64,000 nucleotides of DNA, from assembly GCF_900220975.1 (NCBI RefSeq), contig NZ_OBQD01000004.1:307234-371233 (forward strand), given 5' to 3'. Below, piece after piece: positions 7,005-57,240 of this stretch. Both the position numbers and the translations under genes were made by a program. The first letter of the stretch is position 1; every line of letters begins with the position of its first letter. This DNA comes from Rhizobium subbaraonis. GTDB taxonomy: Bacteria; Pseudomonadota; Alphaproteobacteria; Rhizobiales; Rhizobiaceae. Below the pieces are notes generated by a model. The model was not told where the DNA came from. It was given only the letters and a program-made list of their open reading frames with translations, and ran no database searches.

Positions 7005-7043
7005 GGCAAAGCCCTCCGATGCAGCATGTCTGCATCGGAGATC

Positions 7044-7063
7044 ACATAAAGATATGTTTATGT
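7044..7063 (-). promoter_or_regulatory. Palindromic operator candidate upstream of metH
   Basis: ACATAAA at 7044-7050 and TTTATGT at 7057-7063 are perfect inverted arms around a central ATAT; only the bases flanking that centre (7051 and 7056) break symmetry, so 18 of 20 positions match. A further TTTATG half-site lies at 7073-7078. The palindrome is 40 bp before the metH start, a typical repressor position. An ArsR-family regulator of methionine genes (SahR class) is a reasonable candidate, but that assignment is inference. Confidence 0.65.
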
Positions 7064-7087: not shown

Positions 7088-7303
7088 CTAGTGCGGTCTG
7101 CCTCTCCGCCCGGCGAGCTGTTCGAAAAACGACCGCAGCCGGACGATATCCGGATCCCGATCCTTGTAGGGCGCGAGTTTTGTCAGTTCCTTCATGGCTT
7201 CGGCAGCGAGATCGGCACCACGCGGCTGCCACAGCAGCCAGGAAATGAAGACGGATTCGGGCCTGCTGGACCCGGACGGATTTGGTTCGACGGTGGCAAG
7301 CAT
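7088..7303 (-). CDS. Unknown 71-residue protein under a cobalamin riboswitch
   Basis: I do not recognise this family. The protein starts MLATVEPNPSG and has no signal peptide or membrane segment. After a Pro/Ser-rich head it contains ESVFISWLLWQPRGADLAAE, a helical AMKELTKLAPYKDRD stretch, a second helix IVRLRSFFEQL and a basic tail. Support for real coding: the ATG at 7303 has GGGG six bases upstream, that site is buried in a perfect hairpin, and a well-formed B12 riboswitch lies 85 nt further upstream on the same strand. metH follows 83 bp downstream. A longer in-frame start at 7399 would run through the leader and is unlikely. Function is unknown; the context implies a role when B12 is scarce. 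Confidence 0.6.
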   Translation of the reverse strand: MLATVEPNPSGSSRPESVFISWLLWQPRGADLAAEAMKELTKLAPYKDRDPDIVRLRSFFEQLAGRRGRPH

Positions 7304-7309
7304 TGATGT

Positions 7310-7329
7310 CCCCAATCTTTGAATTGGGG
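7310..7329 (-). promoter_or_regulatory. Hairpin sequestering the ribosome-binding site of the 71-residue gene
   Basis: In the minus-strand transcript CCCCAAT pairs perfectly with ATTGGGG across a six-base loop. The GGGG of the 3' arm is the only ribosome-binding sequence for the ATG at 7303, six bases away. With the cobalamin aptamer upstream it is the natural expression platform for translational control. Confidence 0.7.
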
Positions 7330-7413
7330 GATGACCGGACGCACGCAGGCTGATTGTCGCATCATGCGAAGCCGCGCACCCTTGGGACACCCCGCCCATG
7401 GACGTTAGGTATT

Positions 7414-7611
7414 CATCAGGGCAGGTCTCCTGGCTTGCGGGTCGTTGCGGCTGTCTGGCCTTCCCGGCACGGTCGATGTGCCAGTGGCTTGGGCGACAGC
7501 AGCTCGTCGCTTACAGTTGCGGGGGCAGCGCCGGCATGGATGCGTCTGAAGGCATCGCACCGGCTTCCCTCTTAGCTCCCGGACCGCAATCGATCCGAAA
7601 GAACCCTGATG
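7414..7611 (-). ncRNA. Cobalamin (AdoCbl) riboswitch aptamer
   Basis: Read on the minus strand the element contains the conserved core GCCCCCGCAACTGTAAGC (about 7509-7526) and the 3' B12 box AGCCAGGAGACCTGCC (7435-7420). Closing stem P1 is CATCAGGG (7611-7604) with CCCTGATG (7421-7414), eight perfect pairs. Aptamer length is about 198 nt, normal for the class. It points toward the 71-residue gene and then metH, not toward the cob genes. The family usually lowers expression when adenosylcobalamin binds. Confidence 0.95.
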
Positions 7612-56992: not shown

Positions 56993-57240
56993 TTTTTCCT
57001 CTCAAAAGCCCCGTTAGTTGCTACGGTGTCGGGTATCCCGCCTTATCCACTCAGGATCGCGGTATCTTTCGGACTGATCGGTCCAGGACCAGACTCAGCC
57101 CGCACACCCAGGCGCCGCTGCGGGGCTCCAGCATGCCTGTCGACAATATGAGGATGAACACGGCCGACTACAAGTGGCAATAGGCCGCTACCGATCAAAT
57201 TCATGCGAGGTGACGGCCTGAAACCGGGCGATTTCCAACG

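Follow-up and report, generated by a model that had tools for sequence, protein, structure and literature searches.

The window analysed here is a 64,000-nucleotide stretch of Rhizobium subbaraonis DNA. On its minus strand it carries a cobalamin riboswitch (7623-7403), a short gene for a 71-amino-acid protein that we call p71 (7303-7088) and metH, the gene of cobalamin-dependent methionine synthase (7004-3213). An earlier reading, made from the sequence only and referred to below as the sequence-only reading, had placed metH after the small gene, and the NCBIfam models TIGR02082 (1742.5 bits) and NF007024 (2163.9 bits) confirm this assignment. The window also holds a match to the Rfam ybhL leader (57004-57139, minus strand, 66.1 bits).

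The riboswitch and the leader of p71

The riboswitch is assigned by cmscan to RF00174 with a score of 121.1 bits (E 7.6e-30), compared to a gathering score of 31.5, and the match covers the model in full, from position 1 to position 189. A complete B12 aptamer with a P1 closed by eight pairs had been proposed earlier and the coordinates agree: on the minus strand the arm CAUCAGGG (7611-7604) pairs with CCCUGAUG (7421-7414) through eight pairs. A kissing loop between L5 and P13 is known for the cobalamin riboswitch class. Here, the aptamer sequence GCCCCCGC (7519-7526, minus strand), which we take to be loop L5, is predicted to pair with the loop of a P13-like hairpin, GGGCGGGGUGUCCC (7384-7397, minus strand), that stands directly 3' of the aptamer and contains GCGGGG, the putative complement of the aptamer sequence. 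Within this hairpin, GGGCGGGGTGTCC is identical in all 28 leaders selected for alignment. The B12 box AGCCAGGAGACCUGCC is likewise identical in the 28 aligned leaders, which were picked because a B12 box was present.

The GGGG ahead of the ATG at 7303 sits in a hairpin of 8 bp, CCCCCAAUU..GAUUGGGG (7330-7310, minus strand), which would bury the p71 ribosome-binding site. The earlier claim that the short gene has a hidden ribosome-binding site can be kept in part. Taken alone, the hairpin of the window is no stabler than its dinucleotide shuffles (z -0.32), whereas the GGGG is paired likewise in 30 of the 40 p71 leaders compared, namely those having a B12 box close upstream (28 of the 29 in the first set folded and 2 of the 11 others, L050 and L087). 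The leader stem varies among genera, with CCCCA/UGGGG compared to CCCCG/CGGGG in several of them. The GGGG-pairing hairpin is absent in the remaining 10 leaders; in two of these (L015 and L122) another hairpin lies close to the start, and the other eight have no clear hairpin, with some of the start positions being uncertain. It is this comparison among leaders that argues for a hairpin burying the ribosome-binding site at p71. With its aptamer, its P13-like hairpin and its predicted hairpin over the ribosome-binding site, the switch at 7623-7403 is an ordinary member of RF00174.

p71 is a real gene

The p71 frame opens with the ATG at 7303, has 71 codons and closes with a stop that ends at 7088 (minus strand). 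Three helices are predicted in the protein (15-25, 32-46 and 51-66). The gene is found in 6 of the 7 genomes of the genus, and the dN/dS values of the p71 of the window against five relatives of the same genus range from 0.03 to 0.20. Among 12 Mycoplana- and Shinella-type p71 sequences, pN was lower than pS in 66 of 66 pairs, and the median dN/dS of the same sequences was 0.325 (65 pairs with finite dS). A conserved frame and purifying selection mark p71 as a real gene; a chance open reading frame was rejected on the grounds of the conservation and the low dN/dS. Conserved homologues in relatives, on which the sequence-only reading had depended, thus exist. A longer start at 7399, giving a protein of 103 amino acids, was rejected because conservation in the relatives compared does not reach upstream of 7303, save in the nearest one, L007.

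No family of Pfam or NCBIfam matched p71 at E<=10 (0 families), which is consistent with the earlier remark that the first gene was not recognised as one of the kinds normally controlled by B12 riboswitches. When 56 p71 homologues were compared to Pfam and NCBIfam, the matches were common to one or two members only, with a best E of 0.0056. The AlphaFold2 model, calculated from a 56-row alignment, consists of three helices with a mean pLDDT of 77.1 and a pTM of 0.60. Searching the PDB by sequence gave two matches (best E 0.22), and searching it by fold with the model gave 11 matches (best E 1.7) and no similar solved structure. Some p71 genes are annotated 'hypothetical protein' and others are missing from gene tables.

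Linkage of p71 to cobalamin riboswitches

A profile search of 394 genomes of the family returned 91 p71 matches; at E<=0.01, at least one was found in each of 80 genomes. The neighbourhoods of all 91 matches were searched with a covariance model or with Rfam. The covariance model, derived from 22 riboswitches (those of p71 loci and of the own genome), was built because a regular expression for the B12 box had missed the switches of the GbcAB type. A riboswitch was found upstream, on the same strand and within 5 kb, for 79 of the 79 family matches at E<=2.6e-4, although in one of them (G272) no more than 47 nt of it remain, where the contig stops. Near the 12 weaker family matches no riboswitch was found (0 of 12). 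The split between 79 confident and 12 weak matches (E 2.6e-4 versus 8.2e-4) was set after the list had been seen. In a subset of 25 loci the switch was present in 23, and the upstream sequence of the other two (L061 and L064) is too short to tell. Riboswitch density in 20 genomes of the family (99 matches, 97 of them over the cut-off, in about 104 Mb) corresponds to a chance linkage of about 0.2% per gene. Since the p71 profile was grown from riboswitch-linked members and the homologues are related by descent, the 79 linked cases are not to be taken as 79 independent events. The earlier assignment of the riboswitch to the gene of the small protein is supported by 79 of 79 confident family homologues with a switch upstream. 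Two comparisons, one outside the family and one on plasmids, depend less on how the profile was seeded and on shared descent.

Outside the family and within the same class, two of six p71 matches (L172 and L174) are directly behind a riboswitch. None was found at the other four, including the strongest match, G744 (E 5.8e-13), for which about 5 kb on each side was searched; for L173, another of the four, the sequence covers only about 2.6 kb upstream. The link between p71 and the switch is therefore looser outside the family, and the check suggested earlier, whether homologues always follow a B12 riboswitch, gave a positive answer for the confident family matches but not beyond them. Five of the six plasmid records with a p71 match were examined (H3 was left out) and the switch was present in all five, one of which is a Sinorhizobium meliloti plasmid, while a plasmid search with one GbcAB-type p71 homologue gave no match. 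L169, L170, L171 and L173 encode more distant p71-like proteins, several of which have tails rich in arginine, and no B12 riboswitch was found near them. These would form a wider p71-like superfamily.

Gene contexts of p71

At 33 of the 79 loci p71 is directly behind the switch, at 35 it is behind a GbcAB-like pair, at 10 behind nrdAB, and one locus is a remnant (L095). The 33 direct cases, among which L086 with its remnant of nrdB is counted, have p71 at 98-243 nt past the switch and no enzyme gene between. The loci with a GbcAB-like Rieske oxygenase and reductase under a B12 riboswitch (35 of 79) include L062, L059 and L105. The oxygenase and reductase of L062, the one pair tested, score 528.5 and 362 bits against the NCBIfam equivalog cut-offs of 670 bits for GbcA and 500 bits for GbcB; by these scores the pair appears to be related to glycine betaine monooxygenase GbcA/GbcB without being equivalogs of it.

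What follows p71 differs among the 12 direct loci other than the 21 that have metH within 1 kb. In L067 and L069 p71 is followed by cobF, which shares 90-91% identity with an annotated cobF. By reading of the open reading frames, what comes next is a set of btuB-btuF-btuCD-like genes in L108, another Rieske oxygenase in L080, L087 and L125 (tested in L125) and a membrane protein in L077. Five direct loci (L071, L081, L099, L122 and L126) apparently have no co-directional gene next, less than 1 kb being covered for L122 and L126. The arrangement nrdAB-p71 is followed by cobF in L089, L102, L107 and L117, and Phyllobacterium plasmids carry nrdA-nrdB-p71-metH and nrdA-nrdB-p71-cobF-metH. A tree of p71, prepared without the degenerate second copy of G298 that counts among the 10 loci behind nrdAB, implies a minimum of 13 changes of context; its resolution is poor, however, and the starred branches force only two or three per group.

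metH as a probable neighbouring unit

In the window metH starts 84 nt past p71 on the same strand, and the gap between the two genes holds TTGACATAAACATATCTTTATG. The gene stands behind an operator/promoter-like palindrome of its own, CATAAAcATATcTTTATG with an overlapping TTGACA (7045-7062), and such a site precedes metH whether or not a riboswitch is present. G001, a genome of the same genus, lacks both p71 and a switch at metH and keeps the same kind of palindrome site. The same kind of site also precedes metH in L137, L138, L141 and L142, and a search of the 1.5 kb upstream in these four showed no B12 box. In alphaproteobacteria, SahR binds a 20-bp palindrome and has metH in its core regulon, as described in the accessible part of PMC4239095. 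The palindrome at 7045-7062, likened to the SahR site by this published description only, is likely a SahR-like operator together with the metH promoter; the likeness to the SahR regulon concerns metH and not p71. Since metH retains this putative operator at loci lacking both the switch and p71, the two genes appear to be adjoining units, with metH under its own SahR-like control, rather than the single operon that the sequence-only reading had implied.

The metH leader contains a hairpin that buries its GGAGG (7014-7040, minus strand, z -5.65). It is kept in Shinella-type relatives with an A-U to G-C exchange in the stem, L139 and L029 of a more distant genus have a metH leader hairpin of different sequence, and none was found in some relatives (L138 and L141). 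The hairpin at 7014-7040 may add a second, unnamed layer of RNA control to metH.

The sequence-only reading had suggested that the small protein may help MetH or B12 economy. As a MetH helper, p71 would be made when B12 is scarce and would bind or reactivate the MetH encoded next. The presence of metH within 1 kb downstream at 26 of the 79 loci (21 direct and 5 behind nrdAB) is consistent with such a role, as are the two Phyllobacterium arrangements that end in metH. Moreover, the Meth_synt_2 (MetE-type) domain was not found in 6 of the 7 genomes of the genus, including the own one, and therefore MetH may be their only methionine synthase. However, no metH was found within 1 kb downstream at 53 of the 79 loci, for 4 of which less than 1 kb of sequence is covered, and metH has its own putative operator, which is kept where p71 is absent. 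We consider it unlikely that p71 is a helper of MetH. B12 economy fits the wide data, but a link specific to MetH, as put forward earlier, is not supported, with metH this close at only 26 of 79 loci and p71 behind a GbcAB-like pair at 35.

p71 in the absence of its partner enzymes

Another explanation would make p71 an accessory subunit of the B12-independent NrdAB or of the GbcAB-like oxygenase, or a factor in their assembly, that is stranded at the locus of the window. It is behind nrdAB or a GbcAB-like pair at 45 of the 79 loci, and its start often overlaps or abuts the end of nrdB or of the reductase gene, with the overlap being annotated in some cases. Furthermore, class I RNR was found in 19 of 40 p71 genomes compared to 6 of 40 p71-negative genomes (Fisher p 0.003, ancestry uncorrected). 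The positive genomes were 40 of the 80 with a match and the negative ones were genomes of the family without a listed match; as at most 15 candidates per genome were scored, some of the latter may hold missed copies. Class I RNR being commoner in p71 genomes leaves room for a tie between p71 and RNR. On the other hand, no class I RNR was matched in 21 of the 40 p71 genomes, and at 33 of the 79 loci p71 is behind the switch without such a gene between.

The loci from which the enzymes have been deleted also argue against a subunit, as p71 is still open in them. In L086, nrdAB is cut down to about the last 12 codons of nrdB and p71 is open with 61 codons; in L095, the oxygenase is reduced to its first 41 codons, which abut the end of the reductase, and p71 is open with 80 codons; in L192, nrdA and nrdB survive as short pieces and p71 is open with 82 codons. 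L192 (4287-5415 of the Sinorhizobium meliloti plasmid CP050560.1) is a decayed B12 locus with a riboswitch and a shortened cobF-like open reading frame, and its p71 is not listed in the incomplete PLSDB gene table. In four genomes of the genus (G002, G004, G005 and G006) a GbcAB-like operon stands behind a B12 switch of its own, yet their sole detected p71 is at metH. In G003, which is of the same genus and has p71, we found no class I RNR small subunit, no Meth_synt_2 domain and no close GbcA-like gene, and in 5 of the 7 genomes of the genus no class I RNR match was found. An accessory role with either enzyme is, by these results, quite improbable. In the own genome, another B12 riboswitch (L157, contig C50) stands before glutaredoxin-like and NrdI-like open reading frames and a class I RNR small subunit.

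That p71 is only a leader open reading frame, through whose translation or readthrough the riboswitch would control metH, can practically be dismissed: p71 is indeed the first open reading frame with metH 84 nt downstream on the same strand, but its protein sequence is under purifying selection, it also stands at operon ends, in some genomes it is not followed by any co-directional gene (by reading of the open reading frames), metH has its own putative operator, and turning off a B12-dependent enzyme at plentiful B12 would be the wrong way round.

Proposed role of p71

The reading that we prefer, with a probability of roughly 0.7, is that p71 belongs to the cobalamin-riboswitch regulon as an independent member, acting in trans in B12 economy and not only as a helper of MetH. 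Relatives of p71 are under a like switch but beside different genes, which suggests that p71 is a part of the B12-shortage response in its own right. Because p71 is under a B12 switch in the family but has no fixed partner enzyme, it most likely acts in trans. Its neighbours (the B12-independent RNR, GbcAB-like genes, btu, cobF and metH) span the B12 regulon and none is constant, and therefore an adaptor or regulator acting in trans is favoured.

Cobalamin riboswitches are usually OFF with B12. From this usual logic of the class we infer the direction of regulation, in agreement with the earlier proposal that the small protein is made when B12 is scarce. With B12 plentiful, the aptamer would close, the regulatory hairpin would dock and the p71 ribosome-binding site would stay in its hairpin; with B12 scarce, p71 would be translated. 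The computations show the switch, the frame and its purifying selection, the linkage and the survival of p71 where partner genes have been lost, while the direction of regulation, the translation of p71 and what it does at the molecular level are deduced. The protein would most likely be a small helical adaptor or regulator that works in trans on cofactor allocation, salvage or use by B12-dependent enzymes, and it would not be a subunit of a B12-independent isozyme. Against this reading is the finding that G001 lives without p71.

A more specific form of action is put forward tentatively. p71 may be a protein-level B12-sparing factor that a shortage of B12 would induce and that would bind B12-dependent enzymes or B12-handling proteins (for instance the class II RNR NrdJ, MetH or a mutase) and would reallocate or protect the cofactor. 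Iron sparing, which is carried out by small RNAs and proteins, offers a parallel. If p71 did spare B12 in this manner, it would to our knowledge be the first dedicated small-protein arm of the cobalamin riboswitch response.

Relation to known systems

Operons of nrdAB and of ardX-frdX controlled by B12 riboswitches were reportedly described by Rodionov in 2003. In B12-controlled nrdAB and oxygenase-reductase operons p71 is often next after nrdB or the reductase gene; unlike these genes, p71 also occurs without them, is intact where they are deleted, and is without a name or family model. The classes of the cobalamin regulon given in the accessible part of PMC3766115 are B12 biosynthesis, transport of B12 or its precursors, cobalt transport, and isozymes of B12-dependent enzymes. 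p71 resembles these RF00174 regulons in the switch itself and differs from them in having no known place among the four classes listed there.

MtrI of Methanosarcina mazei is a stress-responsive protein of less than 100 amino acids that binds a methyltransferase corrinoid protein via the cobamide, according to the accessible part of PMC12774963. MtrI is similar to p71 in size and would show, by analogy, that a protein this small is able to act on a B12 enzyme. However, it is archaeal and oxygen-responsive, and serves here only as an analogy for a possible mechanism. We found no description of the p71 protein in the literature searched, which leaves most subscription papers outside, so that a mention in print elsewhere is possible; the accessible part of a Rhizobium etli paper (PMC2881028) has nothing on p71.

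Of all RNA switches, cobalamin riboswitches are some of the best known; the targets listed for them comprise synthesis, uptake and cobalt transport as well as replacement isozymes. In our best reading the p71 family is a new member of this regulon, while the switch itself is ordinary. Coordinates are now given to genes that had been annotated 'hypothetical protein' or were absent from gene tables. In some of the soil bacteria concerned our searches showed no MetE-type domain and no class I RNR, and these bacteria are therefore probably dependent on B12 for methionine and DNA precursors. With the switch in 79 of 79 confident family matches and with variable neighbours, the p71 family would point to a further target class of the cobalamin riboswitch, a factor that manages B12 in shortage.
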